Shown here: piece by piece, positions 13,597-43,403 of the stretch | How positions within the stretch are numbered: the first letter of the stretch is position 1 | How the letters are laid out: each line of letters opens with the position of its first letter | Source: Kineosporia sp. NBRC 101731 | Lineage (GTDB): Bacteria; Actinomycetota; Actinomycetes; Actinomycetales; Kineosporiaceae | DNA length: 64,000 nucleotides | Assembly: GCF_030269305.1 (NCBI RefSeq) | Contig: NZ_BSTC01000018.1 | Span: 1 to 64,000, forward strand | Direction: 5' to 3' | Made by a program: the position numbers and the translations under genes | Notes under the pieces: model-generated | What the model saw: only the letters and a program-made list of their open reading frames with translations | What the model was told of the DNA's origin: nothing | Databases searched by the model: none

Positions 13597-13680
13597 CGTG
13601 ATCATGCAAAACCTCCCCGGACTTCTAGAACTCTGAGAGTGGAGAGTTCTAGAACACTGGGGAGGTTTTGCATGATCACG
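13597..13680. repeat. Palindromic hairpin element, copy B
   Basis: Perfect 22-bp arms (13597-13618 and 13659-13680) begin with CGTGATCATGC and end at CCTCCCC. A second, inner inverted repeat (TTCTAGAACTCT at 13623-13634 with its complement at 13643-13654) extends the hairpin. It lies 16 bp after the GH2 stop and upstream of the giant IPT/TIG gene. It has no U-tract, so it is not a classic terminator on the plus strand, though it could still block transcription. Confidence 0.92.
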
Positions 13681-13852
13681 GCGGTTTGGGTGGCGAATCG
13701 CTCGCAGTTAACGATCTTGCTGCGGACGGGCGACGACGCAACTGTCCCTGTCCATCCCTCTAGAACCTGGTCGCTGCGACCGAGTGTGACTGAACCGGGG
13801 CAGTTTCCCGGAACGGTCGAGCCGCGGCCGGGTTCACTGGTGGGGGTGTGGG

Positions 13853-16800
13853 ATGTCGTCGTCTCGCTCCTCGGGGACGGCTGCACCCTGGCTGGTCAGA
13901 GCGCTCGTCGTTCTGCTCCTGGCCCTCGTGCTGGTCCCGCTCACCGCCCGTCGCAGTGACGCTTTCGCCGGCACGGTGATGGCCAGTGCCTACGGTGGTC
14001 GCGACCTGGGCAGCGCGGCCAGTCCGGCGAACACGATCTACTCGCAGTCCAGTTATCCCTCCACCCCCACTGCGAGCCAAGGGTCGGTGGGCGGCCTGAT
14101 CACGCTCGGGGCCATGAGCAGTACGGCCACGGCCGACCCCCTGGCCGATACCGCCTCCTCGACGGCCACCTCCGGTGGCCTCTCCATCGCGGGCGTCCTC
14201 AGCCTGGCCGCGGCCTCGGCGACGTGTACGGCGACCCCGAGCGGGGCGACCGCCACCGTTCAGGCCTCGGGGCTGACGCTGCTCGGGCTCCCGCTGAACA
14301 CCGTCCCGTCCGGCAACATCCCGCCGAACACGACCATTCAGCAGACCAACCTGTTCGGCCAGAACACCGGTTACATCACGTTCAACGAGCAGACCTACAC
14401 CACCTCGGGTGGGCAGTACTACCTGGTCACCAACGCGGTACACCTGGTCAACAAGACCACCGGCGGGGTGGTCACCGGCAACATCGAGCTGTCCCACGTG
14501 GAGTGCGGCACGACCGCGCCGATCACCCCGATCATCAGCTCGATCACGCCGAACCAGGGTCCGGAGACGGGCGGCACCACGGTGACCGTCACCGGGATCA
14601 ACCTGTTTGCCATCACCAGCGTGACGTTCGGCGCGGCCAATGCCACGAGCTACACGATGAACGCCAGCCAGACGACCCTGACCGCGATTGCCCCGGTGGG
14701 CACCGGCACCGCGAGCATCCGGATCACGAACGTGGCCGGCACCTCGGCCGACACCGTAGCGGACGACTTCTCCTACATACCCAAACCCACCGTCACAGGC
14801 ATCAATCCGACCATCGGGCCGACCGCCGGGGGCACCTCTGTCGTCATCACCGGGACGAACCTCGCAACCGCGACGGGGGTGAAGTTCGGGGCGAACGCCG
14901 CAACCAGCTACCTGGTGAACAGCAACGCGCAGATCACGGCGGTGGCCCCGGCCCGTTCGGCGGGGCAGATCGACGTCACGGTGACGACGGTGGGCGGCAC
15001 CTCGGGCGCCGTGACGGCCGACCAGTACACCTACATCGCCCAGCCCACGGTGACGAACGTGTCGCCCGCGAACGGACCGCTCACCGCCGGTACGGGCGTC
15101 ACCGTCACCGGTACCGACTTCACCGGGGTCACGGCCGTGCGGTTCGGCGCCACGAACGCCAGTTACACCCTCAACAGCGCCACCCAGCTCACCGCGGTCG
15201 CTCCCGCCGGCAGTGTGGGACCGGTCGATGTCACCGTGACGGCAGCCGGGGGCACCTCGGCCACCAGCCCCGCCGACCTCTACACCTACGCCGCCGGGCC
15301 GACCGTGGTCGCCGTGGTGCCGTCCTCCGGACCCACCTCGGCGGGCACCAGCGTCGTCATCACCGGCACGGCCCTGAGCGGGGCGACCGTGGTGAAGTTC
15401 GGGACCACCGCCGCGCCCGGATTCACGGTGAACTCCGCCACCCAGATCACCGCGACCGCCCCGGCCGGTAGCGCGGGGACGGTCGACGTCACCGTGACCA
15501 CACCGGGCGGCACCTCCCCGACCTCCGCCGCCGACCAGTACACCTTCGTGACCGCGCCGGCCGTGACGTCCATCAGTCCCACCCGGGGCCAGCTCGCCGG
15601 GGGCACCACGGTGGTAATCACCGGCACCACCCTGGGCGGGGCGTCGGCCGTGAAGTTCGGTGCCCTGAACGCGACCTCGTTCGTGCAGAACAGCCCCACC
15701 CAGATCACCGCCGTGGCCCCGGCCGGGACCGCCGGCACCGTCGACGTGACCGTGGCGACCGTGGGCGGCACCTCGGCCACCTCGTTCACCGACCGGTTCA
15801 CCTACGTCGCCGCCCCGACGGTCACGAACGTCTCGCCCACCGTGGGCCCGATCGCGGGTGGCACCAGCGTGACGCTGACGGGCACGAACTTCACCGGCGC
15901 GACGGGTGCGACCTTCGGCGGCACGGCCGCCACCTCGGTCACGGTCAGCAGCGACACCCAGATGGTCGTCACCGCCCCGGCCCGCACCGCCGGCACGGTG
16001 GACATCGTCGTGACCGCTCCCGGAGGCGTCTCGGCGACCAGTAGCGCCGACCAGTTCACCTACGCCAACGCCCCCACGGTGACCGCTCTCGCGCCGGCCT
16101 CCGGGCCCACCACGGCGGGTGCCGTTGCCGTCATCACCGGCACCGACCTGAGCGGGGCGACGGCGGTGACGTTCGGCGCCAACCCCGCGAGCAGCTTCGT
16201 CGTCAACAGCTCCACGCAGATCACGGCCGTCGCGCCCTCCGGGAGCGTGGGCCCGGTCGATGTCACGGTGACCACGCCCGGCGGCATCTCGGCCCTCACC
16301 CCGGCCGATCAGTACACCTATCTCGGGGCGCCGACCGTCTCCTCCGTCAGCCCTGGGCGGGGACCGCTCGGCGGGGGCGACGCGGTGGTCATCATCGGTG
16401 CGAACCTGACCGGCGCGTCCGTGGTGAAGTTCGGTGCGACGAACGCCTCGTCGTTCACGGTGAACAGCGCCACCCAGATCACCGCCGTGGCCCCGGCCGG
16501 CCCGCTGGGAACGGTCGACGTGACTGTGACCACCCTGGGCGGCACCTCTCCCACGTCGTCGTCCGACCAGTACAGCTACGTGGCCGCGCCCACGGTGACG
16601 GCGATCTCGCCCACCACCGGCAGCACCACGGGCGGAACCACCGTCACCGTGACCGGAACCGGCTTCACCGGCGCGACCTCGGTGTCGTTCGGCGGTGCCC
16701 CGGCCGCCGGGCTCATCACGGTCAGCTCGGACACCCAGATCACCGCCGTCGCCCCGGCGCACGCGGCAGGTCCGGTCGACGTGACCGTGACCGCACCGGG

Positions 16801-19800
16801 CGGGATCTCGGCCACCAGCGCGGCCGACCGGTTCACCTTCGTCGCCCCGCCCGCCGTCATCGGCCTCAGCCCGAGCGGCGGCGCGGCCATCGGCAGCCTG
16901 ACCCAGGTGGTCACCATCACCGGAACGGGTTTCACCGGGGCCACCGGCGTGACCTTCGACGGCTACCCGACCATCCAGATCCTCAGTGTCACCCCCACCC
17001 AGATCCAGATCCGCGGTATCCCACCGCATCCCACCGGCCAGGTGCACGTCCAGGTCACCAACCCCTACGGCACGAGCGACGCCACCCCGGCCGACCTGTA
17101 TACCTACCAGGGTCTGCCTACGGTGACCGCGGTCTCGCCCTCGGCCGGGCCCCTGTCCGGGGGCGCCACGGTGGTTGTCACGGGTACCGGATTCACCGGG
17201 GCATCGGCGGTCTCGTTCGGTTCCGGGCCGGCCACCTCTTACACGGTCGACTCGGCCACGCAGATCACCGCCGTGACTCCTTCCGGAACCGCCGGAACAG
17301 TGGACGTCCGGGTCACCGCGGTCGGCGGCATCTCTTCGGTGGTGGTCGCCGATCGGTACACCTACCAGGCCGCCCCCGTCATCACCGGGCTCTCACCCAC
17401 GCACGGGCCCGTCGCCGGCGGGATCCTGGTGTCCATCACCGGTTCCCGTTTCAGCGGCGCGACCACGGTGACGTTCGACGGGGTCGCGGCGGCCGGGGTG
17501 ATCACGGTCAGCAGTGACACGCAGATCTTCGCCCAGACCCCGGCTCACGTCGCGGGTCCGGTGGCCGTGGTGGTGACGGCGCCGGGCGGTACTTCTCCGG
17601 CGGCCGGCTACCTGTACGTCGGCACACCCACGGTTTCCGGTCTGTCGCCGGTGAACGGGCCGATCGCGGGCGGTACCCCGGTCGTCATCACCGGTACGGG
17701 ATTCACCACCGTGTCCGGGGCGACGGCCGTGCAGTTCGGTGGAACGAACGCTTCGACGTATACGGTGAACAGCGATACCCAGATCACGGCGGTGACCCCG
17801 CCGCACGGGGCCGGGGCGGTCGGGGTCACGGTCACGACCATCGACGGTGGAACCTCGGCACCCGGCTCCTTCACCTATATTCCGGTGCCCGTCGTCACCG
17901 GGATCTTGCCCGCCCAGGGGCCCGAGGCGGGCGGCACCAATGTGACCGTCAGCGGGACCGGTTTCACCACCGCCAGTTCCGTGCGCTTCGACGGGAGTCC
18001 GGCCTCCTTCACGGTAGACTCGGACACCCGGATCACCGCTGTCGCCCCGGCCGGTACCGGCCTGGCCGACGTCACGGTGACCACGGCCGGCGGGGTCTCG
18101 GCCACCGGCACGGCCGATCAGTTCCGGTACGTGGGGACGCCCAACCTGACCTCGGTGAGTCCCACCAGTGGTCCGGTGGCCGGGGGAACCTCGGTGACGA
18201 TCACCGGCACGCAGTTCTACGGGGTCACCGGGGTTACGTTCGGTGGGACTGCGGCGACGTCGTACACCGTGGTGAGCCCGACGCAGATCACCGCTACCGC
18301 CCCGGCGGGTAGCGCGGGCCCGGTGGACGTCCGGGTGGCCACCACCGATGGTGGAACTTCCTCTGCCGAAACTGTCTTTACCTACCTTGCGGATCCGGTG
18401 GTCGCGGGCCTCTCGCCCGCCAGTGGTACCACGGGTGGCGGGACTGTGGTCCTCATCAGTGGTTCCGGGTTCAGCGTGGCGACAGCTGTGCGTTTCGGGT
18501 CGGTGCCGGCCGCGTCGTTCACCGTCAACAGCGGCTCGCAGATCACCGCGGTCAGCCCGGCCGGTGCGGTCGGGACGGTCGACGTGACCGTGGTGGGCCC
18601 GTACGCGACCTCGGCCACCTCGTCCTCTGATCGATTCACCTACGCCGCCGGACCCACCCTCACCGGCGTGACCCCCTCGGCCGGGCCGTTGGCCGGTGGC
18701 ACCACGGTGAGCATTGCCGGAACCGGCTTCACCCTGACCTCGACCGTGACCGTCGGGGGAAATGCCGCTACCTCGGTGCAGTACGTGTCGCCGACCCAGC
18801 TGACGGTCATGGTGCCGGCGGGCAGTGCCGGCCCGGCCGACGTGGTGGTGGTCACGCAGTACGGCCAGGACTCGCTGACCGGTGGATACGTTTACCGCAC
18901 AGCACCTTCGGTTTCGGCCTTGGCTCCCGACACCGGCCCGGAGTCCGGCGGCACCGTGGTCACGATCACCGGCACCGGGTTCACCGATGCCACCCAGGTG
19001 CGGTTCGGGTCGTCCGTGGCCACCTTCACCGTCTCCACGGACACCCGAATCACCGCCACCGCTCCGGCCGGTACTGGCAGCGTTGATGTGACGGTGACTG
19101 GGCCGGGCGGTGTTTCGGTTCTCTTGGGGGCCGATCGGTACCGTTACGCGCCGGTGCCGGTGGTGGCCTTGCTGTCGCTCAGCTTCGGCCCCACGGGCGG
19201 GGGGACCGCGGTCACGGTGACGGGTTCTGGTTTCACCGGTGCCACCGCGGTTGCGGTCAACGGTTCCTCTGTGCCCTTCACCGTGCTCAACGACACCACG
19301 CTCACCTTTACCTCGCCGGGTGGCGCGGGCGACGTTCCGGTCGTCGTCACCACGCCGGGCGGCAGCAGCGCCCCGCTGCTGTTCACCTACGCGAACGCTC
19401 CCACCGTTACCAGTCTCTCGCCCGACCGGGGTCCGGTCGCCGCCGGAACCTCCGTGACAATTACCGGAACCGGCTTCACCAGTGGCTCTTCCGTTGCCTT
19501 CGGCGCTGTTCCGGCCGCCTCCGTGCAGTTCGTCAGCGCCACGCGGCTCGTCACGGTCGCACCCGCCGGATCCGGTGCCGGGCCGGTCGACGTCACGGTG
19601 ACGACCGCCGGCGGGACGTCCTCCACGTCGGCTGCGGATGTCTACACCTACCTCGCTGCACCGGTTCTCGCCTCAGTATCGCCTCCGTCCGGCCCGGTTG
19701 GCGGGGGGAACACCGTGGTGATATCCGGAACCGATTTTACCGCTGGATCTTCCGTGACCTTTGACGGGGCGGTCGCGACCTCGGTGCAGTACGTCAGCGC

Positions 19801-22800
19801 CACTGAGCTCAGGGCAGTTGTTCCCGCGGGAGCTTCCGGGCCGGTGCTGGTGCGGGTGACGACGCCGGGCGGTTCGGACAGTGGGGTTTACACCTACCGG
19901 GTGGCTCCTGCGGTCGGCTCGATCGCTCCGGGGGCCGGTCCGGAGGCCGGCGGCACCGCGGTGACCATCGACGGCACCGGCTTCACCGGGGCAACCTCTG
20001 TGCTCTTCGGTTCTGCATCAGCCGGTTTCACCGTGGTCAACGATACCCGGATCGCTGCGACCGCCCCGGCCGGCAGCGGGACCGTGGACGTGCGGGTGAC
20101 GGGGCCCGGCGGTACTTCCGCCGTGTCGTCGGCTGACCGCTTCCGTTACGTGCCGGTGCCGGTGGTCACGTCCCTGTCTCCCGCCCTCGGGCCGACTGCG
20201 GGTGGAACGGCGCTGACCTTGACCGGTACCGGTCTGACGGATGTCAGTTCGGTTACAGTGGGCGGTAGTTCGGTTGCTTTTACCGTGATCAGTGATTCTG
20301 TCGTCACGCTGGTCACTCCGCCTGGGGTGCCGGGGAACGCGGCGGCGGTGGTGGTGGCCACGGCCGGTGGATCGTCCGCGCCGATCTCGTTCCTGTACGC
20401 GGACGCACCTTCGGTGAGCGGTCTTTCGCCGGATGCCGGGCCACCCGGTGGTGGTACCGCAGTGACGATCACCGGTACCGATTTCACCCCGGTTTCGGCG
20501 GTGACGTTCGGGGGCGTGGCCGCTGTCGTGCAGTACGTGAGCCCGACGCGGCTCATTGCGGACTCGCCGGTGCGGGGGTCAGCGGGAGCCGTGAACGTGG
20601 TGGTGGCTACTGCCTACGGCACATCTGCCACCGGAAATCTTTTCACCTATACGGTTTCCCCGACTTTCAGTGGGGTTTCACCGTCGGCCGGACCGGTGCT
20701 GGGCGGGACTACCATCGTCATTGCGGGATCTGGGTTGACCGGGGTTTCGGAGGTGACTATTGGCGGAGTTCCGGCTGCCTCGTACACGGTGAACAGTGAT
20801 TCTTCCATCACGGCAGTCACTCCGGCGGGCTCACCGGGTAATGCTGTGGTGCGGGTGGCGACTGTTGGCGGTTTCGACACGGGTGTCTTCCGGTATGCGA
20901 ATGTGCCCGTCATTTCGGGGGTCTCGCCGGGTTCTGGGCCTGAGGCCGGGGGAACGCTGGTGACCGTTGATGGTTCTGGGTTTACCGGGGCTTCGGTGGT
21001 TTCGTTCGGTGGGGTGGCCGGGACCGGCCTGACGGTCAGTAGTGATACGCGGATCACTGTTTTCGCTCCTCTTGGTACGGGGATGGTGGACGTTGTTGTC
21101 ACCGCCCCTGGTGGAGTTTCGGCTGCTTCGGTGGCTGATCGGTATTGGTATGCGCCGGTTCCTGTTGTCGCTCAAGTGAATCCCTCGTCCGGGCCGTTGG
21201 CCGGCGGGACTTCGATGACTGTCGGCGGGTCTGGGTTCTCGGGCGCTACAGATGTCACCCTGGATGGTGTCTCCGTTGGATTCAGTCTGGTCGACGGCTC
21301 GACGCTCACCCTGACCACGCCCTCTCATGCGGCCGGGGCCGTGCCAGTGGTGGTAGTCACGCCGGGTGGGGCCTCGGCTCCATTGACCTTCACCTACACC
21401 GATGCCCCCACCGTCTCGTCAGTTTCGCCGGGAGCCGGGCCACTCTCGGGTGGCATCACGGTCACCCTTGCGGGTTCCGGGCTGACCGGGGCTTCGGGGG
21501 TGACCTTCGACGGGGTGGCGGCTGTCTCGTACACGGTGAACAGCGACGCTTCGATCACCGCGGTCGCTCCGGCGGGTTCCCCGGGTCATGCGGTGGTGCG
21601 GGTGACGACCGTGGGTGGTTCCAGTACCGGTGTCTTCCGCTATGCGAATGTGCCGGTCGTTTCCGGGGTCTCGCCGGTCGCCGGGCCGGAGGCCGGCGGA
21701 ACGCTGGTCACGGTCGACGGCTCGGGCTTCTCCGGCGCGACCGTCGTGCGCTTCGGGGCGGTGGCGGCCTCGAGTTTCACTGTGAGCAGCGATTCCCGGA
21801 TCTCGGTCTTCGCGCCACCCGGAACCGGGACCGTTGATGTCGTGGTGGCGGCTCCTGGCGGAGTCTCCGCGTCGTCCTCTGCTGATCGTTACCGCTACGC
21901 CCCGGTGCCCGCGATCGGCACCGCGGGACCGGACACCGGGCCGCTCGGCGGCGGCTCCGTGGTGACGCTCTCGGGCAGCGGGTTCACCGGGGCGACGGAC
22001 CTCACCGTCGGCGGCGTCCCCGTGGCGTTCACCGTGGTGGACGACTCGACGATCACCTTCACCACCCCGCCGGGAGCGGCGGGTTCCACTGACATCGTCG
22101 TGACCACACCGGGCGGAGCCACTGCCCCGGTGGTGTTCACTTATGCCGATATTCCGGCCGTCAATAGTGTTTCGCCCGACGAAGGCCCGATCGCCGGGGG
22201 CACGATCGTCACGATCACCGGGAGCGGGTTCGGTGGTGCCACGGCCGTCGCGTTCGGTGGGGTGCCCGCCACCGGGTTCGCGGTGAACAGCCCCACCGAG
22301 ATCACCGCGACCAGCCCGGCCCAGGCGGCGGGCGTGGTCGACGTGCGGGTGACCGGGCCGGGCGGACCCACGGCGACCAGCAGCGCCGACCGGTTCACCT
22401 ATCGTCCGGTGCCGGTCGTCGGTGCGCTCTCGCCCAGCTCCGGGCCGGTGACGGGCGGTACCCCGATCACCCTGTCGGGCAGCGGGTTCGGTGGTGCGAC
22501 CAGTGTGAGCGTCGGGGGAGTGGCCGTCCCCTTCAGTGTGGCCGACGACTTCACCGTCACCTTCACCACGCCGGCGGGTACTGGTGCGACCGCGGTGGTC
22601 ATCTCGACCGCCGGTGGATCAGCAATCTCCACCTTCACTTTCGCGGACGGACCGACCGTCACGGCCCTCGCGCCGGCGGCCGGCCCGCTCTCCGGCGGGA
22701 CATCGGTGACCATCGACGGCACCGGGTTCACGCTGGCGTCCACGGTCGCCTTCGGTGCCCAGCCGGCCGTATCCGTCCAGTTCGTCGGGCCGGCCCGGCT

Positions 22801-25207
22801 CGTGGCGGTCGCACCCGCGGTGGCCTCGGCGAGCACCGTGAGCGTGGTCGTGACCACCGCCTACGGCAACTCCGGGGTGGCCGGCACCGCCAATGACTTC
22901 ATCTACACCGACGTTCCGGTGATCACGGACGTCCAGCCCGCATCGGGCCCGTTGAACGGGGGGAATACGTTAGTGATCAGTGGATTTGATTTCAACAGCG
23001 CCACCGGGGTCAGTTTCGGCACGGTGGCGGCGGTGAGTTACTCGGTCATCAGTGACACCGAGATCACGGCCGTGGTGCCCGCCCAGGGGGCTGGGCCCGT
23101 GGACGTGCGGATCAGCGGAACCGGGGGCACATCACCGATCACGATCGGTGGCCGCTACCTCTACCTGGCCGTGCCGGTGGTCTCGGGCCTGGCTCCGGAT
23201 ATGGGCCCGACGGCCGGGGGCACCAGCGTCACGATCACCGGCACCGGCTTCACCAGCGGCTCGCAGGTGACGTTCGACGGTACGCCCGCCGGTTCGGTGC
23301 AGTTCGTCTCGGCTACCGAGCTGGTCGCGACCAGTCCCGCGCACGCGGCTGGAACGGTGGACGTCGTGGTGACCACGGCGGGAGGGTCATCCTTGCTGGG
23401 TGGTGCCTTCGAGTACCAGGTCGCACCGGCGGTGAGTGGTTTCTCGCCGTCGTCAGGTCCGTTGACCGGTGGAACTGCCGTCACGGTCTCGGGTTCCGGT
23501 TTCACCCCGGCGTCGACGGCGAAGTTCGGGTCCCTGGCGGCCTCGGTGCAGTACGTTTCCCCGACCCGCCTGGATGTGGTCAGCCCGGCGGGTGCGCCGG
23601 GGCCGGTGAATGTGGTGGTCACGACGGCCGGGGGTGATTCCGCACCGGGAACCTTCACCTACGTCCCGGTGCCCCTGATCGTGACGCTCTCACCCGATGC
23701 CGGCCCGACCGCGGGCGGAACCACCCTGACGGTTGGTGGTTCCGGCCTGGCCGGGGGCACCGTGACCGTCGACGGCATTGCTGTCACACCGGACTCGGTG
23801 ACCGATTCGTCCATCGTTCTCCGCACTCCCGCCCATCCCGCAGGGACGGTGACCGTGCGGGTGGCGACCGTCGGAGGTGCGACGGAGGGCGCCTTCACCT
23901 ACGTGGCACCGCAGTCCACGCCGGTGCTGTCGGCGGTCGAACCGGCGAGCGGTCCGGAGGCGGGCGGTAATACGGTCACGCTGACCGGGGTGGGATTCAC
24001 CGGCGCCACCGAGGTGAAGTTCGGGGGCGGTGCGGCGAGTTTCACCGTGGTCGACGATTCCACGATCACGGCGGTCGTTCCGGCCGGAACCGTTGGTGCG
24101 GTGCTGGTTTCCGTGACCACGCCGAACGGTACGACCGGCGGGACGGTGAGCTACTCCTACCTCGAGCCGCCGGTGGCGCCGACCATCACCGGGGTGGAGC
24201 CGACCGTCGGGCCGGTCGCCGGGGGTACCCGCATCACCATCACCGGAACCGGTTTCGACGCGGACACGACGGTGACGTTCGACGGAGTGCCGGGTTCGGA
24301 GGTGGTGATCGGGGCCTCGGCAACCCGCCTGCTCCGGGCCCTACCGAGCGGGATCCGGGCCGCCTCGTCCACCTCGCTGACCGTTCTGACCCCCGCGCAC
24401 GCCGAGGGACCGGCCGCGGTCACCGTGACGAACACGGCCGGAAGTGCGGATGCCGAAATTGATTTCACCTACGTTCCGCCGCTGCTGGAGACCACGGTCA
24501 ATCTTGAGGTGGAGGTGAACGCGGCCACGGCGGTGGCCCCGCAGGGTTCGTTGTACGCCGGCCTGACGGTGCAGGCGTGCTCGACGCCGAACCGGGGTTC
24601 CAGTTCGATCGGAACCGACGCGGCCTTCTGCCGCTACACCGCCCCGGACCGGGCGGGCGTCGACGCCTTCACGATGCGGGTCACCGACGAGATCGGGCAG
24701 ACCGCGACGCAGGCCGTGCGGATCACGGTGATCGAGAACGATCCGGGCGGGGAGGGCACCGGCGGGGACGGGGGTGACGACGGTGGCACCGGCTCGGGCG
24801 GTGGCGGCGGCAATGACAACAACGGTGGTTCGGACGGTGACAACTCGGGTGGTGACAACTCGGGCGGCGGTGATTCGGGATCCGGTGGTTCGGGATCCGG
24901 GGGTGGTGGGGGCAACGACACCCCGGGCCGGGGCAATCCCACGATCGGGGTCCCCACCCCGACCACGTCACCCGTTCCCCCTGTCCCGACCACATCCCCC
25001 GTCCCCACCGTCGCCGCGACCCCGAGCCCGACCCCGGCTCCCACGGTGTTCAACGGGGCCCTGCCCAAGAGCCTGCTGATCCCGCTGATCATCGGTATCA
25101 GCACCCTGCTGGCGGCGGTGCTGGCGGCGAGTACCTGGTATCTGTGGTGGCCTTGGCTACTCCTGCTGCTGGCCCGTCGCCGGCGGCGGAAGCACGGCGA
25201 GGACTAG
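13853..25207 (+). CDS. Giant membrane-anchored surface protein with 39 IPT/TIG repeats
   Basis: A 3784-residue protein. It has a signal peptide (about 1-38), then an N-terminal domain (about 39-222) resembling 'choice-of-anchor P' modules. From about 14521 to 24470 I count 39 IPT/TIG immunoglobulin-like repeats of about 85 residues, each opening with a P.V..[ILV]SP..GP..GGT-like motif and containing TQITAVAPAG and FTY-like strands. The tail is a Cys-containing domain, a Gly/Asp/Ser-rich linker, a Pro/Thr-rich stretch, a membrane helix (about 3738-3772) and a basic cytoplasmic end RRRRRKHGED. No LPXTG is present. It is probably a long stalk-like adhesin. In repeats 18-32 a higher-order order of types recurs; repeats 25-27 and 28-30 are close copies. 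Codon use is more T-rich around 20.6-21.4 kb, and a rare TTA codon occurs near 22969. Confidence 0.9.
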   Translation: MSSSRSSGTAAPWLVRALVVLLLALVLVPLTARRSDAFAGTVMASAYGGRDLGSAASPANTIYSQSSYPSTPTASQGSVGGLITLGAMSSTATADPLADTASSTATSGGLSIAGVLSLAAASATCTATPSGATATVQASGLTLLGLPLNTVPSGNIPPNTTIQQTNLFGQNTGYITFNEQTYTTSGGQYYLVTNAVHLVNKTTGGVVTGNIELSHVECGTTAPITPIISSITPNQGPETGGTTVTVTGINLFAITSVTFGAANATSYTMNASQTTLTAIAPVGTGTASIRITNVAGTSADTVADDFSYIPKPTVTGINPTIGPTAGGTSVVITGTNLATATGVKFGANAATSYLVNSNAQITAVAPARSAGQIDVTVTTVGGTSGAVTADQYTYIAQPTVTNVSPANGPLTAGTGVTVTGTDFTGVTAVRFGATNASYTLNSATQLTAVAPAGSVGPVDVTVTAAGGTSATSPADLYTYAAGPTVVAVVPSSGPTSAGTSVVITGTALSGATVVKFGTTAAPGFTVNSATQITATAPAGSAGTVDVTVTTPGGTSPTSAADQYTFVTAPAVTSISPTRGQLAGGTTVVITGTTLGGASAVKFGALNATSFVQNSPTQITAVAPAGTAGTVDVTVATVGGTSATSFTDRFTYVAAPTVTNVSPTVGPIAGGTSVTLTGTNFTGATGATFGGTAATSVTVSSDTQMVVTAPARTAGTVDIVVTAPGGVSATSSADQFTYANAPTVTALAPASGPTTAGAVAVITGTDLSGATAVTFGANPASSFVVNSSTQITAVAPSGSVGPVDVTVTTPGGISALTPADQYTYLGAPTVSSVSPGRGPLGGGDAVVIIGANLTGASVVKFGATNASSFTVNSATQITAVAPAGPLGTVDVTVTTLGGTSPTSSSDQYSYVAAPTVTAISPTTGSTTGGTTVTVTGTGFTGATSVSFGGAPAAGLITVSSDTQITAVAPAHAAGPVDVTVTAPGGISATSAADRFTFVAPPAVIGLSPSGGAAIGSLTQVVTITGTGFTGATGVTFDGYPTIQILSVTPTQIQIRGIPPHPTGQVHVQVTNPYGTSDATPADLYTYQGLPTVTAVSPSAGPLSGGATVVVTGTGFTGASAVSFGSGPATSYTVDSATQITAVTPSGTAGTVDVRVTAVGGISSVVVADRYTYQAAPVITGLSPTHGPVAGGILVSITGSRFSGATTVTFDGVAAAGVITVSSDTQIFAQTPAHVAGPVAVVVTAPGGTSPAAGYLYVGTPTVSGLSPVNGPIAGGTPVVITGTGFTTVSGATAVQFGGTNASTYTVNSDTQITAVTPPHGAGAVGVTVTTIDGGTSAPGSFTYIPVPVVTGILPAQGPEAGGTNVTVSGTGFTTASSVRFDGSPASFTVDSDTRITAVAPAGTGLADVTVTTAGGVSATGTADQFRYVGTPNLTSVSPTSGPVAGGTSVTITGTQFYGVTGVTFGGTAATSYTVVSPTQITATAPAGSAGPVDVRVATTDGGTSSAETVFTYLADPVVAGLSPASGTTGGGTVVLISGSGFSVATAVRFGSVPAASFTVNSGSQITAVSPAGAVGTVDVTVVGPYATSATSSSDRFTYAAGPTLTGVTPSAGPLAGGTTVSIAGTGFTLTSTVTVGGNAATSVQYVSPTQLTVMVPAGSAGPADVVVVTQYGQDSLTGGYVYRTAPSVSALAPDTGPESGGTVVTITGTGFTDATQVRFGSSVATFTVSTDTRITATAPAGTGSVDVTVTGPGGVSVLLGADRYRYAPVPVVALLSLSFGPTGGGTAVTVTGSGFTGATAVAVNGSSVPFTVLNDTTLTFTSPGGAGDVPVVVTTPGGSSAPLLFTYANAPTVTSLSPDRGPVAAGTSVTITGTGFTSGSSVAFGAVPAASVQFVSATRLVTVAPAGSGAGPVDVTVTTAGGTSSTSAADVYTYLAAPVLASVSPPSGPVGGGNTVVISGTDFTAGSSVTFDGAVATSVQYVSATELRAVVPAGASGPVLVRVTTPGGSDSGVYTYRVAPAVGSIAPGAGPEAGGTAVTIDGTGFTGATSVLFGSASAGFTVVNDTRIAATAPAGSGTVDVRVTGPGGTSAVSSADRFRYVPVPVVTSLSPALGPTAGGTALTLTGTGLTDVSSVTVGGSSVAFTVISDSVVTLVTPPGVPGNAAAVVVATAGGSSAPISFLYADAPSVSGLSPDAGPPGGGTAVTITGTDFTPVSAVTFGGVAAVVQYVSPTRLIADSPVRGSAGAVNVVVATAYGTSATGNLFTYTVSPTFSGVSPSAGPVLGGTTIVIAGSGLTGVSEVTIGGVPAASYTVNSDSSITAVTPAGSPGNAVVRVATVGGFDTGVFRYANVPVISGVSPGSGPEAGGTLVTVDGSGFTGASVVSFGGVAGTGLTVSSDTRITVFAPLGTGMVDVVVTAPGGVSAASVADRYWYAPVPVVAQVNPSSGPLAGGTSMTVGGSGFSGATDVTLDGVSVGFSLVDGSTLTLTTPSHAAGAVPVVVVTPGGASAPLTFTYTDAPTVSSVSPGAGPLSGGITVTLAGSGLTGASGVTFDGVAAVSYTVNSDASITAVAPAGSPGHAVVRVTTVGGSSTGVFRYANVPVVSGVSPVAGPEAGGTLVTVDGSGFSGATVVRFGAVAASSFTVSSDSRISVFAPPGTGTVDVVVAAPGGVSASSSADRYRYAPVPAIGTAGPDTGPLGGGSVVTLSGSGFTGATDLTVGGVPVAFTVVDDSTITFTTPPGAAGSTDIVVTTPGGATAPVVFTYADIPAVNSVSPDEGPIAGGTIVTITGSGFGGATAVAFGGVPATGFAVNSPTEITATSPAQAAGVVDVRVTGPGGPTATSSADRFTYRPVPVVGALSPSSGPVTGGTPITLSGSGFGGATSVSVGGVAVPFSVADDFTVTFTTPAGTGATAVVISTAGGSAISTFTFADGPTVTALAPAAGPLSGGTSVTIDGTGFTLASTVAFGAQPAVSVQFVGPARLVAVAPAVASASTVSVVVTTAYGNSGVAGTANDFIYTDVPVITDVQPASGPLNGGNTLVISGFDFNSATGVSFGTVAAVSYSVISDTEITAVVPAQGAGPVDVRISGTGGTSPITIGGRYLYLAVPVVSGLAPDMGPTAGGTSVTITGTGFTSGSQVTFDGTPAGSVQFVSATELVATSPAHAAGTVDVVVTTAGGSSLLGGAFEYQVAPAVSGFSPSSGPLTGGTAVTVSGSGFTPASTAKFGSLAASVQYVSPTRLDVVSPAGAPGPVNVVVTTAGGDSAPGTFTYVPVPLIVTLSPDAGPTAGGTTLTVGGSGLAGGTVTVDGIAVTPDSVTDSSIVLRTPAHPAGTVTVRVATVGGATEGAFTYVAPQSTPVLSAVEPASGPEAGGNTVTLTGVGFTGATEVKFGGGAASFTVVDDSTITAVVPAGTVGAVLVSVTTPNGTTGGTVSYSYLEPPVAPTITGVEPTVGPVAGGTRITITGTGFDADTTVTFDGVPGSEVVIGASATRLLRALPSGIRAASSTSLTVLTPAHAEGPAAVTVTNTAGSADAEIDFTYVPPLLETTVNLEVEVNAATAVAPQGSLYAGLTVQACSTPNRGSSSIGTDAAFCRYTAPDRAGVDAFTMRVTDEIGQTATQAVRITVIENDPGGEGTGGDGGDDGGTGSGGGGGNDNNGGSDGDNSGGDNSGGGDSGSGGSGSGGGGGNDTPGRGNPTIGVPTPTTSPVPPVPTTSPVPTVAATPSPTPAPTVFNGALPKSLLIPLIIGISTLLAAVLAASTWYLWWPWLLLLLARRRRRKHGED
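20640..22150 (+). repeat. Higher-order duplication of three IPT/TIG repeats
   Basis: Repeats 25, 26 and 27 (from about 20640) and repeats 28, 29 and 30 (from about 21400) form two consecutive triplets with matching order. Shared stretches include SYTVNSD-SITAV-PAGSPG, GVFRYANVPV-SGVSP, GPEAGGTLVTVDGSGF and DRY-YAPVP. The unit is about 750 bp. The first copy uses visibly more T-ending codons than the second, so the two copies have diverged silently or have different origins. Confidence 0.7.
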
Positions 25208-25247
25208 GACGACGCGAGGGTGGGGGGCGAGGACCCCCTCCTTCGTT

Positions 25248-25330
25248 CGTGATCATGCAAAACCTCCCCGGCGTTCTAGAACTCTGGCCTCGACAGTTCT
25301 AGAAGTCCGGGGAGGTTTTGCATGATCACG
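25248..25330. repeat. Palindromic hairpin element, copy C
   Basis: Perfect 24-bp arms (25248-25271 and 25307-25330) with the same sequence as copy B over 22 positions, and an inner TTCTAGAACT / AGTTCTAGAA inverted repeat. It lies between the convergent giant surface-protein gene and the alditol oxidase gene. A T-rich tract follows (GGGTTTTCTTTTTTAG), so on the plus strand it can act as an intrinsic terminator for the 11.4-kb gene. Confidence 0.92.
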
Positions 25331-25345
25331 GAAGGGTTTTCTTTT

Positions 25346-26596: not shown

Positions 26597-26724
26597 GCCG
26601 CGTTCCTCTCGATCCCTGCCACAACCGCGTGGCGCTGGGAGCGATCCTGCCACCCACCCGACCCGAGCGGGACAGGGAAACCTCACAGCGCCGGGCCGGA
26701 CTGTGCGGACAACGTAGCTACTGG

Positions 26725-34997: not shown

Positions 34998-35000
34998 GGA

Positions 35001-37043: not shown

Positions 37044-37387
37044 GAGGCAGCCTCTCGGAAGCAGTGCGGCGGATCCGGCACGGTCGGGTGCCTCGCGGTG
37101 CGGGGGTGAACCCCTAGTCCGCCCATGATGTTGCCGCAGGCTGCTTAACCGATATGGAACGCATTGTTACAAAATGTGATTGGCAAGAGGTCTGCACGAA
37201 AAGTCAAACTTTGAACAAATGTCTTGATTTGCCGATTGGAAATCGGTAAGGGCTCTGGCGGCCGGTGAACTCTGCGTGATGGTTCACGTACGCCTCCCGT
37301 TGGGTTTTGAACCCGTTCGAGCCTCTGTCGCGTGATGGGGGAAAGGACCGGCGAACAACGCGGAGGGTGCTCGATGGAGGTCTCGCG
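37044..37387. promoter_or_regulatory. Divergent control region between NIT kinase and LuxR genes
   Basis: This 344-bp stretch has no gene. It is AT-richer at 37140-37230. A palindrome CCGATT-gga-AATCGG at 37232-37246 is a candidate operator, and GTTACAAAATGTGA (about 37166-37179) is another dyad-like sequence. GGAGG at 37376-37380 is the ribosome binding site of the LuxR gene at 37388. Confidence 0.4.
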
Positions 37388-38733: not shown

Positions 38734-38755
38734 TCGATGACCCGCAGGACAGGTC

Positions 38756-39358
38756 CTAGCAGCCGTTCTGCAGGGCGACCTTCGCGTAGCCCAGGGTCTG
38801 GCGCACGTACTGGTAGGTCCAGTTCAGCGGGCGGATGCTCAGGGGTGCCTCGAGCATCAGCAAAGTGCCCGGGTAGCAGCGGTCCACGATCGATCGGGTA
38901 CGGCTGATGTGATATGTGGCCGCCACCACGCCCACCCGGTCCCAGCCGTTCTCCTGCGCCAGGCGTCCTAGTTCGCGGGCTTCGCCCCGGGTGGTCATCG
39001 GGTCGGGCCGGAAGCAGATCAGCTGGTAATCGGCCGGTTTCGAGGCGCACAGGTCGTGCACCGGCTGGAAGTCCGGATCGTCGGTGGGGTAGGGGTCGGA
39101 CACGATCAGTACGGACGCCTTGCCCTGCTCCACCAGTTGCTGCGCGTAGAAGGCCGTCTCGGTGCGGCCACCGAGAGCCAGGATCGCGTCGACGCTCTCG
39201 CCGTCTGCCAGCGTGTCGGTGCGGGGGAACGAGTACAGCCGGCCTCCGGTCGGCACGATCACCAGCACGGCCACCACCAGGAAAATCGCCAGACGCCGGG
39301 GCCAGCGGCGCGGGGGCAGGCTCGTGACGGCGCCGCGATTCTCAGGCTTCTCAGGCAT
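38756..39358 (-). CDS. DUF218 (YdcF/SanA-like) membrane protein
   Basis: A 200-residue protein with one N-terminal membrane helix (about residues 20-38, RLAIFLVVAVLVIVPTGG) and an extracellular DUF218 domain (ILALGGRTETAFYAQQLVEQ; VGVVAATYHISRTRSIV). DUF218 proteins are implicated in envelope integrity; the reaction is unknown. The ATG at 39358 overlaps the end of the fructosamine-kinase gene by 8 bp. The longer open frame upstream is shadow of that gene. Confidence 0.78.
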   Translation of the reverse strand: MPEKPENRGAVTSLPPRRWPRRLAIFLVVAVLVIVPTGGRLYSFPRTDTLADGESVDAILALGGRTETAFYAQQLVEQGKASVLIVSDPYPTDDPDFQPVHDLCASKPADYQLICFRPDPMTTRGEARELGRLAQENGWDRVGVVAATYHISRTRSIVDRCYPGTLLMLEAPLSIRPLNWTYQYVRQTLGYAKVALQNGC

Positions 39359-40157
39359 ACGACCGGGCCACCCGGGTCGCCTGCTCTCCGTACGACGCCC
39401 CGAACAGCACCGCGTGCACCAGCAACGGGTGCACCTGGTGCAGGGGCCGGCGGTCTCGCCAGCCGTCCGCCAAGGGGGCCGTCTCCTGGTACCCGTCGAG
39501 CACGCTCTCCAGGTGGGGCAGGCCGAACAGGGCGAGCATGGCCAGGTCGGTCTCCGGGTGGCCACCGTGGGCGGCGGGATCGATGACCACGGCGCCCACC
39601 GGCGTCCACAAGACGTTGCCCGACCACAGATCTCCGTGCAGGCGGGCAGGTTTCGTTTCCGGGCCGGTCAGTGCCGGGTCACCTTCGCGCAGTCGGTCGC
39701 ACAGATTGAGGACGAGGTTCAGCCCGCTCCCGCTCAGCCCTCCGCAAGCCTGCGCGGCGCGTGCGAAGGGCTCCACGCGGCTGCGCGCGTAGAAGTCCCC
39801 CCAGTGCGGCGGGGGTTCGGTGAGGTGCGGCAGGGGCAGCGTGGCGATGAACCCGTCGGCGACGCCCGGAGGTGCGCAGCCGTGGTGCGGTGCCCCCGCG
39901 CGGTGGGTGAGGGCGAGTCGACGGCCGAACTCACGGGCCGCCTCGGGCGTCGGGCTCACGATGGGGTAGCGGGGCAGAATGATGGACGAGGTGGTCACCT
40001 CGAGCACGTCGGCCACCGGTGTGCCACCGGCCTGGGTGGCTGCGCCGAGCCAGCGTAGGCCGGCCGCCTCGACCGGGTAGAAACCGGCCGGGGCGTTCGG
40101 GTCCTGCTTGGTGAAGGTGGTCACGTTGGTCACATTGGTCAGGTGGGGGAAGACCAT
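39351..40157 (-). CDS. Fructosamine-3-kinase family protein
   Basis: A 268-residue kinase-fold protein. The family signature RLHGDLWSGNVLW carries the catalytic Asp, and VIDPAAHGGHPETDLAML carries the metal-binding Asp and the characteristic ETDLAM. Members phosphorylate sugar-protein adducts (fructosamine/ribulosamine) and lead to their removal. The ATG at 40157 directly follows the TAA of the phosphatase gene. This pairing with a low-Mr phosphatase is known: such phosphatases can supply or repair ribulosamine/erythrulosamine substrates, so a joint protein-repair role is a reasonable guess. Confidence 0.88.
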   Translation of the reverse strand: MVFPHLTNVTNVTTFTKQDPNAPAGFYPVEAAGLRWLGAATQAGGTPVADVLEVTTSSIILPRYPIVSPTPEAAREFGRRLALTHRAGAPHHGCAPPGVADGFIATLPLPHLTEPPPHWGDFYARSRVEPFARAAQACGGLSGSGLNLVLNLCDRLREGDPALTGPETKPARLHGDLWSGNVLWTPVGAVVIDPAAHGGHPETDLAMLALFGLPHLESVLDGYQETAPLADGWRDRRPLHQVHPLLVHAVLFGASYGEQATRVARSYA

Positions 40158-40673
40158 TTACGCGGGGTGCCCCTGACGCTCGTCGAGGTAGTCGACGATG
40201 CCGTCGACCGCGGCCTCGATCTGCTCGATCATCTCGACGAACTCGGAGTTCTGGGCGCTGCGGTCGTAGTACGGGTCGGGTACGTCGAGGCGCCGGTCGT
40301 CGTCGGACACGTCTTCCAGGTCGAAGTCGAACGAGCGCAGCAGCCGGATCTTCGCCGCCGACTCCGCGTCGGGCGCCATCGCGTGCAGCTGCCGGAAGTG
40401 GCCGCGGTCGAGGGCGACGATCAGGTCGCGCTCGGCGAACAGGCTCTCGTGGAACTGCTGGGCCACGTGCTCGCTGCCGTCGTACCCGGCCCGCTTCAGA
40501 GCCCACACCGCACGCTCGTCGGCGCCGTCACCCACGTGATAGCTGTCGAGGCCCGTCGAGTCGACCTGTGCGGCCAACCCGGCGTCGTGGATGCGGGCCC
40601 GTGCGATCACCTCGGCCGAGGGAGAACGGCAGATGTTCCCCGTGCAGACAAAACAGATCCGGTACGGCGCCAT
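40158..40673 (-). CDS. Low molecular weight protein-tyrosine phosphatase
   Basis: A 171-residue cytoplasmic phosphatase. The active-site loop CTGNICRSP (C-x5-R) is near the N-terminus and the general-acid Asp is in VPDPYYD. A GAGGGAG lies one base before an ATG at 40682 but ten bases before the ATG at 40673, so the latter is preferred; the difference is three residues. The gene leads a leftward run with the fructosamine-kinase and DUF218 genes. Confidence 0.92.
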   Translation of the reverse strand: MAPYRICFVCTGNICRSPSAEVIARARIHDAGLAAQVDSTGLDSYHVGDGADERAVWALKRAGYDGSEHVAQQFHESLFAERDLIVALDRGHFRQLHAMAPDAESAAKIRLLRSFDFDLEDVSDDDRRLDVPDPYYDRSAQNSEFVEMIEQIEAAVDGIVDYLDERQGHPA

Positions 40674-40715
40674 GTCGGCCATTCTCCCTCAGTCTTCCCT
40701 CAACCCGTGGCCCGG

Positions 40716-41729
40716 TCAGATGACCGGCTCGGACTCCGGGAACAGTCGCGCCAGCAGGTCGGAGAGGGTGATGACCCCGACGAACTGGCCGCCGTCCGTC
40801 ACCGTGGCCAGGTGACTGCGGGTCTCCCGCATCTGGTTCATCGCCTGGAACACCTTGGTCTGCGCCGGCAGCGTGTACACCGGGCGGGCCAGCGACTGCG
40901 CGGGGGCGTCGTCCGGGGCCAGCAGGGTGTCGCGCACGTGCACCACGGCGTTCATCGTGGCGCCCTCACCGATCAGGATGCGCAGGTGACCCGACGACAG
41001 CGAGGCCTCCCGCACGGCCCGCACGTCCGCGTCCGGCAGCACACTGGTCGTGCCCCCGTCGCGTCGCACCAGGTCACCCACGGTCAGGGTCTCCAGGTGC
41101 AGGGCGTTGTTCAGCCGGTCCGAGTACCCCGCCTCGAGCGATCCGACGCTGGCCGAGTGCTCGACCAGGCTGCGCAGCGCGGCCGGGTCGCGGCCCGAGG
41201 CGACCTGCTCGGCCGGGTCGACGTTCACCCGGCGCAGACACCAGTTGGCGATCGCGTTCAGCCCGTTCAGCAGCGGCCGGGTGAGCGCCATGAAACCCCG
41301 CATCGGCAGCGCCAGCAGCACGGCCGAGGTCTCGGGGTGCGCGATGGCCCACGACTTCGGCGCCATCTCACCCACCACCAGGTGCAGGAAGGTGACGATG
41401 ATCAGGGCCAGCACGAAACCGGCCACGTCGGCGGGCAGCTCACCCAGGCCCCAGTGCTCGAACATCGGGGTGAGCCAGTGGTGCACGGCCGGTTTGGTGA
41501 CCGCGCCGAGAGCCAGGGTGCAGGCTGTGATGCCGAGCTGTGAACCGGCCAGCAACACGGTCAGCTCGCTCGAGCTGCGCAGTGCGGCCCGGGCCGAACG
41601 GCTCGACGTGGCCAGGTCTTCCAGCCGGTGACGGCGGGCGGCCAGCAGCGCGAACTCGATCGCCACGAAGAAGGCGGACAGGGCGATCAGCGCGAAGGTC
41701 ACCGCGACGACCACGAACGGGTTGCTCAT
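40716..41729 (-). CDS. CNNM-domain/CBS-pair membrane protein (second of pair)
   Basis: A 337-residue protein of the TlyC/CorC family. The N-terminal CNNM/DUF21 domain has 3-4 membrane helices (FALIALSAFFVAIEFALLAA; LTVLLAGSQLGITACTLALG) and the conserved LVVGEMAPKSWAIAHPE. A CBS pair follows (about 215-335). No CorC_HlyC domain is seen, so it is shorter than its neighbour. Relatives are tied to Mg2+ or Na+/Mg2+ transport. The ATG overlaps the upstream stop by 4 bp, and the two proteins probably form a heteromer. Confidence 0.87.
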   Translation of the reverse strand: MSNPFVVVAVTFALIALSAFFVAIEFALLAARRHRLEDLATSSRSARAALRSSSELTVLLAGSQLGITACTLALGAVTKPAVHHWLTPMFEHWGLGELPADVAGFVLALIIVTFLHLVVGEMAPKSWAIAHPETSAVLLALPMRGFMALTRPLLNGLNAIANWCLRRVNVDPAEQVASGRDPAALRSLVEHSASVGSLEAGYSDRLNNALHLETLTVGDLVRRDGGTTSVLPDADVRAVREASLSSGHLRILIGEGATMNAVVHVRDTLLAPDDAPAQSLARPVYTLPAQTKVFQAMNQMRETRSHLATVTDGGQFVGVITLSDLLARLFPESEPVI

Positions 41730-43105
41730 GCCTCCACCTCCTCGTCGGTCTTCTTCTCGTCGATGCGCAGGCGCAGTTCGACCGGCACGTGCCGCTCCAC
41801 CCGCATCACCTCCGCGGACATCACGTAGACGGGTGGGTCGCCGTCGAGGGCCAGCAGGGCCGGGTCGGTGGGCAGTTCCACCTCGACCACCGTGCCCACC
41901 CCCGGTAGCGAACCGTGGCGGGCGATGACCAGACCGGCCAGGGTCTCGAAGTCACCCCGCGGAAGTTCGCTGTCCACGGCCCGTTCCGCCTCGTCCAGCG
42001 GCGTTGAACCGGCCAGCAGCCAGGTGCCGTCGTCGGCCTGCGGCCGCCGCAGACGCTTGCCCGCATCCGCCGGGTCGTGCTCGTCGGTGATCTCGCCGAC
42101 CAGTTCCTCGGCCAGGTCTTCCGACGTGATCAGACCGGCGAGACCGCCCCACTCGTCGAGCACGCAGGCCAGCTGGGCGCGTTTGATCACCAGCAGTTGC
42201 AACAGGGAGGTCAGCGGCATGGTGGTCGGTACCAGGGTGGCGGGACGCATGATGTCCGTCGCCGTTCCGGCGTGATCGGCCGGCAGCACCAGCACGTCCT
42301 GCAGGTGCACGACACCGAGGACCTCGTCGTCGGGTCCGAGCACCGGGTAACGACTGTGGCCCTTGCTCATCAGCTCGCGCACCCGGGTGATCGGGTCGTC
42401 GGAGTGCACCACCCCGACCGCGGTGCGCGGGATCATCGCGTGCTGCACGTCTTGCTGCGGGAAGTCGAGAATGCGGTCGAGCAGCAGGGACAGCTCCGGG
42501 GGCAGGTCACCGCTCTGCGCCGACTCCGCCACGATGTGCTCCAGGTCGCGGGCCGTGGCCGAGTGCTCCACGTCGTGCGCCGGCTCGATGCCCAGCACCT
42601 TCAGCAGGGCGTTCGAGGACTTGTCGAAGATCTGGATCAGCCAGCCGAAGACGGTCAGGTAGGCGCTGGTCGATCCGGCCAGCCAGAGGGCGACCGGGTC
42701 GGGGCGGGCGATGGCCAGGTTCTTCGGGAACAGCTCACCGAAGATCATCTGCACGGCGGTGGAGAACAGCAGGGCCAGCACGGTGCCGATGGCGATGCCG
42801 ACACCCGTGGGTACGCCGACGCCGCCCAGTGCCTCACCCAGGGCCTCGCCGATCAGCGGTTCGGCCACGTACCCGACGAGCAGGCCGGTGATCGTGATGC
42901 CCAGCTGGGCGCCCGACAACATGAACGACGTGCGCTGCGTGACCGTCAGGGCCCGCTCGGCCGCCGTGTCACCGGCGTCGGCCCGGGCCTTCAGCGCCGA
43001 CCGGTCCACCGCCATGTACGCGAATTCCTGGGCCACGAAGTATCCGGTGACGGCGGTGATCGCCAGTACCACCAGCACACCCAGGAGCAGGGACAGGACC
43101 CACAT
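41726..43105 (-). CDS. CNNM/CBS/CorC_HlyC membrane protein (first of pair)
   Basis: A 459-residue protein. It has a CNNM domain with four helices (TAVTGYFVAQEFAYMAVDRS; LSGAQLGITITGLLVGYVAE; MIFGELFPKNLAIARPD), a CBS pair (about 200-330, including IPRTAVGVV and LVGEITDEHDP after it) and a CorC_HlyC transporter-associated domain (about 350-440, LAGSTPLDEAERAVDSELPR). The family is associated with Mg2+ efflux or homeostasis. The ATG at 43105 overlaps the TAA of a 23-codon leader ORF (TAATG) and has GGGGGG just upstream, inside that ORF. Confidence 0.88.
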   Translation of the reverse strand: MWVLSLLLGVLVVLAITAVTGYFVAQEFAYMAVDRSALKARADAGDTAAERALTVTQRTSFMLSGAQLGITITGLLVGYVAEPLIGEALGEALGGVGVPTGVGIAIGTVLALLFSTAVQMIFGELFPKNLAIARPDPVALWLAGSTSAYLTVFGWLIQIFDKSSNALLKVLGIEPAHDVEHSATARDLEHIVAESAQSGDLPPELSLLLDRILDFPQQDVQHAMIPRTAVGVVHSDDPITRVRELMSKGHSRYPVLGPDDEVLGVVHLQDVLVLPADHAGTATDIMRPATLVPTTMPLTSLLQLLVIKRAQLACVLDEWGGLAGLITSEDLAEELVGEITDEHDPADAGKRLRRPQADDGTWLLAGSTPLDEAERAVDSELPRGDFETLAGLVIARHGSLPGVGTVVEVELPTDPALLALDGDPPVYVMSAEVMRVERHVPVELRLRIDEKKTDEEVEA

Positions 43106-43176
43106 TAGTTCGTTCCCCCCTTCACCGCGTCAGGATCGGCACAGTTCCGGGGGCCGGGATAGTCGTGGTCGTCCAT
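43105..43176 (-). CDS. Putative 23-codon Asp/Pro-rich leader peptide of the CNNM pair
   Basis: An ATG at 43176 opens a short frame, MDDHDYPGPRNCADPDAVKG plus three residues, whose TAA overlaps the ATG of the CNNM gene. Six of 23 residues are Asp and four Pro. The purine-rich stretch serving as the CNNM ribosome binding site lies inside it. A stop/start overlap implies that its translation affects the downstream gene. Asp/Pro-rich leaders are known in enterobacterial Mg2+ control, where they destabilise ribosomes at low Mg2+. The upstream ribosome binding site here (GAGAGCGAG) is only fair, and chance is possible. Confidence 0.4.
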   Translation of the reverse strand: MDDHDYPGPRNCADPDAVKGGTN

Positions 43177-43335
43177 CGCTCGCTCTCATAGGGGCTGTAT
43201 CTCCCGGGCACAACGCGTCATCGGCGCAGGCAGTTCCCAGGTTCACCCGGATTGCGCAGAGAGCTGGCGGGATCAGGGCCCGCGCCCCAGGCCCGCCCTG
43301 GGCATCGTGACGGTGCTGCTCCCCCCAACTTCGTT

Positions 43336-43395
43336 CGTGATCAGGCAAAGTGTCCCCGGGGTGCCAGAACGCCGGGGACACTTTGCCTGATCACG
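43336..43395. repeat. Palindromic hairpin element, copy D
   Basis: Perfect 24-bp arms (43336-43359 and 43372-43395) with a 12-base loop. The ends CGTGATCA and the inner CCCCGG are as in copies B and C, while four internal positions differ in a compensatory way on both arms. It lies 8 bp after the aldo/keto reductase stop on that gene's 3' side. Confidence 0.92.
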
Positions 43396-43403
43396 AGAGG
43401 GCT

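Follow-up and report, generated by a model that had tools for sequence, protein, structure and literature searches.

A multi-copy hairpin family at gene ends in Kineosporia, with end sequences that recur in scattered actinobacteria

The window analyzed here, bases 1-64000 of contig 18 (NZ_BSTC01000018.1) in the 8.26-Mb genome of Kineosporia sp. NBRC 101731, contains four long palindromes, elements A to D, which a preliminary description had grouped as one family of hairpins with compensatory changes. Our analysis indicates that they belong to a multi-copy family of gene-end hairpins, which probably act for the most part as bidirectional transcription terminators and whose end boxes are probably kept for a specific factor. 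In the mechanism that we propose, a hairpin 7-30 nt behind a stop codon would work mostly as a bidirectional terminator, and perhaps as a 3'-end protector. The two 11-nt ends, CGTGATCAKGC, would be kept by selection for a putative sequence-specific factor, and the inner arms would mainly need to pair, with their sequence drifting and their two sides often changing together. Such co-changes may reflect selection on the stem, the copying of one arm onto its partner, or conversion by another element of the family, and new copies, element C for example, would also arise. What the data show directly is where the elements lie, that their arms pair and covary, that the boxes are constrained, that relatives lack C, and that the distribution is patchy; termination, the factor, and the route by which copies appear are inferences.

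Hairpins behind stop codons

Among the 40 intergenic elements of the sequence labeled C1 of this genome, 31 were located at most 30 nt from a stop codon, as called by a simple in-house gene caller, compared with a mean of 2.8 and a maximum of 10 in 1000 trials of random intergenic placement. With this, the terminator-like position considered in the preliminary description is well supported, and because so many hairpins lie this close to a stop codon, the majority of them probably serve as two-way transcription terminators. A stable stem directly behind the stop codon, a trait of intrinsic terminators, was found; T made up 28% of downstream positions 5-14, versus 16% in the genome, and TTT runs were more frequent in the flanks (14 of 41) than at control sites (21 of 293). 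Of the 114 elements at named loci, 4 were situated between divergent genes, 5 overlapped called genes, and 12 lay at locus edges. At loci L158 and L176, which are from RYN metagenome-assembled genomes (MAGs), an element stands between an rpoA-like gene and a ribosomal L17-like gene (names assigned by eye). Judging by these neighbors, it looks as if an element can occur inside an essential operon.

The four window elements were confirmed as inverted repeats at the positions first assigned to them. Element A (7158-7221; 25-nt arms, 92% paired) has end boxes CGTGATCATGC at 7160-7170 and, as the reverse complement, at 7209-7219. It lies in frame within the open reading frame (ORF) 5672-7795, a His/Gly-rich NicO-type nickel-transport gene, which had been missed before; Kineosporia mesophila (G002) has a related element at this position. 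Adjoining element A, the same gene holds a long HGHGHG-coding tandem repeat (window 7240-7520). Element B (13597-13680; 38-nt arms, 92% paired) is of an 84-nt class in which the center varies and two TTCTAGAAC boxes are present. Its left end box CGTGATCATGC, which recurs across families, is at 13597..13607 on the + strand and its right end box at 13670..13680 on the - strand. It starts 16 nt past the stop of a GH2-type gene (11193-13580) and has a counterpart in K. mesophila with a nearly identical loop.

Element C (25248-25330; 36-nt arms, 94% paired), of an 83-nt class, has end boxes at 25248..25258 (+) and 25320..25330 (-) and is followed by GAAGGGTTTTCTTTTTT. It is placed between convergent stops, 40 nt past that of a TIG-repeat ORF and 15 nt before that of a FAD-oxidase-type gene. 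Element D (inverted repeat 43335-43396; 28-nt arms, 96% paired) represents a 60-nt class (43336..43395) with AAAGTGT arms and the CAGGC box variant on both sides; its end boxes are at 43336..43346 (CGTGATCAGGC, +) and 43385..43395 (-), and a - strand aldo/keto reductase gene (43404-44276) has its stop 8 nt away. Its syntenic right flank was not found in the stretches of G001-G005 that were compared. The TIG-repeat ORF next to element C (window 13853-25207) is unusually long at 3784 aa, with 39 matched IPT/TIG stretches, and contains a lone exact box CGTGATCAGGC on the - strand at 14094-14104, possibly by chance.

As to the finer points of the preliminary description, an arm length of 22-25 bp held for A, while the arms of B, C, and D proved longer. 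The four internal differences between B/C and D were recovered and fall on arm positions 9, 15, 16, and 17, each of them altered in both arms, and the shared preceding motif was borne out as TTCGTT upstream of C and D and partly of B. RNA folding gave z-scores of -5.8 (A), -10.8 (B), -9.3 (C), and -8.5 (D), and none of the 200 shuffles made per element did equally well. When up to one mismatch is allowed, CGTGATCAKGC occurs 14 times in the window (3.8 expected), and Rfam gave 0 matches above the gathering cut-off there.

Family anatomy, conservation in place and gain of copies

The whole genome contains 412 matches (204 + 208) to CGTGATCANGCN8CCCC when a single mismatch is tolerated, and the reversed pattern has none; this is an undercount, because the spacer of the pattern is one base too long and spends the single mismatch allowed to a typical arm. 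With one strict pattern we obtained 102 full palindromes of limited span versus 0 in the control, and the 46 hairpins in 1.284 Mb of the genome suggest, by simple proportion, some 300 genome-wide. In K. mesophila there are 53-76 elements, depending on the pattern. The case of only four unrelated copies, for which the preliminary description had allowed, is thereby excluded. Its other case, in which ordinary terminators had come about independently of one another, does not hold either, since 22-36 nt of arm are common to the copies and the same ends are found in different families.

The base form of 44 nt consists of CGTGATCATGC, 7 variable nt, and CCCC, followed by the mirror image. A 60-nt form has a single central TTCTAGAA, an 83-nt form has two TTCTAGAA boxes about a center of ~7 nt that differs in nearly every copy, and a ~112-nt form bears a 30-nt hairpin module on just one of its arms. 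This module (TGGGGGCACCTCCCGGCCGAAGGCTGGGGGA on one strand) is present in one arm of many elements, such as C1 636056, 638934, 663296, 805856, and 808259 in NBRC 101731 and G002:C1:205791 in K. mesophila; the four module-bearing NBRC 101731 elements with a readable K. mesophila orthologue have a plain arm there. The module had no match in IMG/VR. A similar hairpin, GGGGGCACCTCCCAGCGGTAGCTGGGGGA with variants, was found in 9 of 384 genomes of the class, all of one genus that we take to be Streptomyces, at up to 19 matches per genome and with a pattern that misses the NBRC 101731 genome, where the loop is one base longer. For ~16 nt outward from the ends, the flanking sequence is poor in C and rich in G/T. 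There are also inside-out pairs, in which the conserved ends point inward and the CCCC ends away from the center, resembling a circular permutation (C1:356049-356106, 616764-616831, and 1057958-1058004).

Of the 93 exact copies of GTGATCATGC in 1.2 Mb, 69 belong to convergent pairs; several of the remainder are hairpins that have decayed. The uptake sequences of Neisseria and Haemophilus likewise consist of a short motif with inverted pairs at gene ends, and accumulation through a transformation bias could give rise to the short motif and the many inverted pairs at gene ends seen here. However, given this share of convergent pairs, the few solitary copies in coding sequence, and inner arms that are also common to copies, we regard such an origin as very improbable, and it was rejected for the small number of solitary copies in genes.

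When 25 NBRC 101731 elements were compared with K. mesophila, 18 were alignable, 5 were absent, and 2 were not judged. In the 18 orthologous elements the end boxes were identical at 373 of 396 positions (94%), as compared with 303 of 396 at arm positions 12-22, 354 of 522 inside, and 771 of 1080 (71%) in the 30-nt flanks, a comparison with a selection bias in that the NBRC 101731 elements had been found by their boxes and presence in K. mesophila was judged by TGATCA. On these alignments, the sequence-specific constraint on the 11-nt ends goes beyond both earlier readings, that of a mobile hairpin and that of a plain terminator.

Among 308 base pairs from 14 hand-paired orthologues, 19 had changed on both sides and were still Watson-Crick, while 29 had changed on one side and 3 on both sides otherwise. 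Between copies, 86.4% of arm positions were Watson-Crick versus 76.5% with shuffled partners (80.7% in the best of 2000 shuffles), as calculated for 58 of 71 elements with 39 distinct arm pairs, after the 13 with a module had been dropped. The proposal of a REP/BIME-like hairpin family with true covariation is thus upheld, at hundreds of copies. For twelve loci a segment was available from G004, G003, or G001, and hairpins in it were judged by eye. At five of these (740299, 764599, 767695, 785600, and 840966) an unrelated perfect or near-perfect hairpin occupied the slot in one or more of the three genomes, and at the inside-out locus 616763/616764 it is K. mesophila that holds an unrelated perfect hairpin in the slot. 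Because of position, stem, and slot, we consider it probable that bidirectional termination is the likeliest job of the elements in Kineosporia.

Several observations weigh against the terminator reading. Besides the simplicity of the gene caller, 9 of the 40 intergenic C1 elements were more than 30 nt from any called stop, a TTT run was present in only the 14 of 41 flanks mentioned above, and no terminator was reported at C or D by a simple scan, whose loop limit of 8 may exclude them. Family boxes were present in relatives at four loci (738107, 797419, and 858170 in G004; 840966 in G003), two of which have direct or inside-out arms, and at 805856 no hairpin was seen by eye in G004, G003, or G001. 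Then there are the elements inside genes, where termination would be harmful: 2 of the 42 C1 elements, as well as element A, are in frame within coding sequence. One of them, C1:825815, is located in the linker of a methylmalonyl-CoA-mutase/MeaB fusion (IcmF-like; Pfam check), the G004 and G003 versions of which are shorter and lack the element; the other, C1:758011, is within an acyltransferase-SGNH gene (Pfam check). Relative to K. mesophila, one base pair of the mutase copy has changed in a compensatory way and three on one side, so that paired change occurs, once, at a site where termination would do damage; neither 758011 nor A, which are also genic, has a compensatory pair. Genic copies could in this way separate selection on an RNA stem from arm-to-arm correction. 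We also found no candidate factor or mover among the 25 listed clusters of neighboring genes (two nearest genes per side, by eye), which were ordinary, comprising short-chain dehydrogenases, ABC transporters, CoA ligases, and ribosomal and rpoA-like genes. Finally, the conserved end sequence and the 53-nt phasing described below are both left unexplained by termination alone; to account for ends that are the same in different families and for the arrays, a reader of GTGATCATGCA or an element-moving enzyme is needed.

The compensatory pair within a coding gene, together with the inside-out and single-arm forms, would be expected if template switching at hairpins corrects and spreads palindromes as a mutational artefact with no function. 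This explanation is improbable, and it is weakened because the strong placement behind stops and the conservation of the boxes above that of the flanks need selection.

A more serious contender follows from element C, which has no counterpart at the orthologous place in G002, G004, G003, or G001, where the whole segment is without TGATCA; in G004, G003, and G001 the genes flanking the site nearly abut. From these alignments, C is best read as a gain in the lineage of NBRC 101731, the alternative being a gain before the split from K. mesophila followed by loss in the latter. The family might accordingly be viewed as REPIN-like non-autonomous mobile DNA, copied by an enzyme other than RAYT and surviving mainly behind stops, where it is harmless or useful, and we judge this to be nearly an even possibility. 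It would fit the REPIN architecture of the elements (inverted conserved ends, a variable pairing spacer, and compensatory changes, as far as PMC3116915 outlines these), the in-frame copies within genes, the one-arm module that is missing from the four K. mesophila orthologues, and the uneven copy numbers among genomes given below. However, the mover named in the preliminary description, a TnpA-REP transposase, was not borne out: Y1_Tnp (PF01797) is absent from the NBRC 101731 genome and from 20 of the 23 element-bearing genomes, and RAYT/Y1 was therefore rejected as the general mover. Nor was a parent transposase with the same ends seen among the 25 listed neighbor clusters, all of ordinary families, and the sites without an element for C and 808259 had no clean target duplication. 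Unrelated copies seldom share a loop (4 of 528 pairs within one mismatch, 2 of these orthologous), and 18 of the 23 judgeable elements are also in place in K. mesophila. A phage, virus, or plasmid origin was rejected in that an exact pattern had no match in IMG/VR and element C none in plasmid and phage records.

We dropped renewal of the loop at each copying as proven, because the insides of orthologous elements also diverge and G004 and G003 hold decayed members; the loop differences of unrelated copies fit old copies too. Conversion of a single arm by other copies, then correction of one arm by the other, is a candidate route that fits the spread of the module, the switching of both arms to another version at one locus, and the inside-out forms.

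Distribution and phased arrays

The distribution was determined with the pattern GTGATCATGCN{10,60}GCATGATCAC, with the NBRC 101731 genome counted in both the order and the phylum sample. The pattern was present in 20 of 396 genomes and 11 of 109 genera of the order sample. The phylum sample gave 2 positives among 396 genomes, both from the order of Kineosporia itself. When an A/T variant was included, 8 of 394 genomes and 7 of 138 genera of the class sample were positive. Among the matches listed are Kineococcus, Kineosporia, Planotetraspora, Bailinhaonella, Actinomadura, Microbispora, and several MAGs. By these matches, the ends GTGATCATGC(A) recur in scattered genomes of at least two orders, Kineosporiales and Streptosporangiales, and confinement to one order is ruled out by Planotetraspora, Actinomadura, Bailinhaonella, Microbispora, and others. 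Element-bearing genomes had 1 to 72 copies (0 in the reversed control) under 27 handles that are not all distinct, at least G536 and G781 being the same genome, and genomes carried either many elements or nearly none. The inner arms are lineage-specific (CTTTCGA, GAAGACCCGCAC, ATCCCGCCACC, CGTTCGCCCC, GGTA, and others). Literature searches by sequence string and by topic gave no description of the palindrome family among the matches listed.

In Planotetraspora the ends are still paired, and the center of 8-38 nt is mostly unpaired. Its loci (L112-L220) contain inverted arrays of the GTGATCATGCA box between genes, many of which span the intergenic space; the box repeats on each side, with CGAACTTC before it and a second box, GCAGGTCA, between boxes. 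Of 226 gaps of at most 130 nt between exact GTGATCATGC copies in the same orientation, 196 were exactly 53 nt, the others being 106 nt (10), 52 nt (9), 54 nt (4), or other lengths (7), in counts that cover 41 loci, include orthologous ones, and hence are not all independent. Relative to the control, complementarity between left and right linkers was little or none in 32 arrays (0.404 versus 0.360, 0.331 versus 0.343, and 0.346 versus 0.349). A 53-nt spacing without paired linkers would fit five turns of a DNA helix better than an RNA stem. In five orthologous array pairs the boxes were identical at 398 of 407 positions and the rest at 1055 of 1463, with 0.97 and 0.98 versus 0.51 and 0.59 in the two most diverged pairs; the second locus of a pair had been chosen for its central boxes, which leaves only the outer boxes free of bias. 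None of 35 judged Planotetraspora elements was between divergent genes.

The phasing bears directly on the idea that the elements are sites for a DNA- or RNA-binding factor with an insulating or terminating action on transcription at gene ends, for instance as a bound roadblock, with the factor reading GTGATCATGCA and the hairpin being secondary. The helical spacing, the unpaired linkers, the inversion of boxes about a center in arrays that often span the space between genes, the absence of elements between divergent genes, and a box found in different families and preserved at orthologous sites are all in line with it. On the other hand, there would then be no need for the strong inner pairing of Kineosporia, Kineococcus, and Actinomadura, box-to-box spacing varies freely in Kineosporia, the listed neighbor clusters include no such factor, and the gap counts are partly non-independent, so that we hold this idea to be possible and somewhat doubtful. 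A combined form can be put forward just as tentatively: GTGATCATGCA may be the recognition site of a putative, patchily inherited actinobacterial factor for termination or insulation at gene 3' ends, which in Kineosporia and Kineococcus would recognize lone hairpins and in Planotetraspora the inverted arrays phased at 53 bp; copying of the elements may be driven by this factor as well.

Comparison with known repeat families

Long, sequence-conserved hairpin terminators behind stop codons are known from mycobacteria as TRIT. The palindromes resemble these in being long, sequence-conserved hairpins behind stops in an actinobacterium, and the two are not known to have an end box in common. According to PMC10969869, the SPRITE, RUP, and BOX elements of Streptococcus pneumoniae are dispersed short repeats with terminator-like hairpins, and they insert into one another (see also PMC3049150). 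Here the likeness lies in dispersal, shortness, and terminator-like hairpins, and the difference in the host. SPRITE, RUP, and BOX also have other sequences and are not known to share an end box across genera. The Rickettsia palindromic elements (RPE) are described in PMC10969869 as palindromic repeats that lie in frame in protein genes, as do element A and the two genic C1 copies. RPE are, however, ~150 bp long and often genic, whereas genes are not the main niche here (3 of 46 NBRC 101731 elements) and most copies are behind genes.

The closest known kind are REPINs, which, according to PMC3116915, have inverted conserved ends, a less conserved hairpin spacer, compensatory changes, and many, mostly extragenic copies. 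The palindromes share with these the inverted conserved ends, the variable pairing spacer, the compensatory changes, the large number of mostly extragenic copies, and a lineage-specific sequence. They differ in that the NBRC 101731 genome and most element-bearing genomes tested are without a Y1 transposase, that their ends are constant across families while the insides vary, and that they lie precisely behind stops and form 53-nt phased arrays in Planotetraspora. Moreover, REPIN/RAYT repeats end in a GTAG- or CGTC-type tag, as far as PMC3733652 describes them, whereas the palindrome ends read CGTG...CACG; the main text of PMC3733652 has no mention of actinobacteria, cgtg, or tgatca. The family works like a REPIN and is not filed as one, because the defining RAYT is missing. 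It would thus be a REPIN-like repeat without RAYT, the end sequence of which is selected and recurs in at least two actinobacterial orders. With such an end sequence, recurrent and held by selection, some factor would have to read it, and the discovery of that factor would reveal either a new system of termination or insulation at gene ends or a new palindrome-spreading enzyme.

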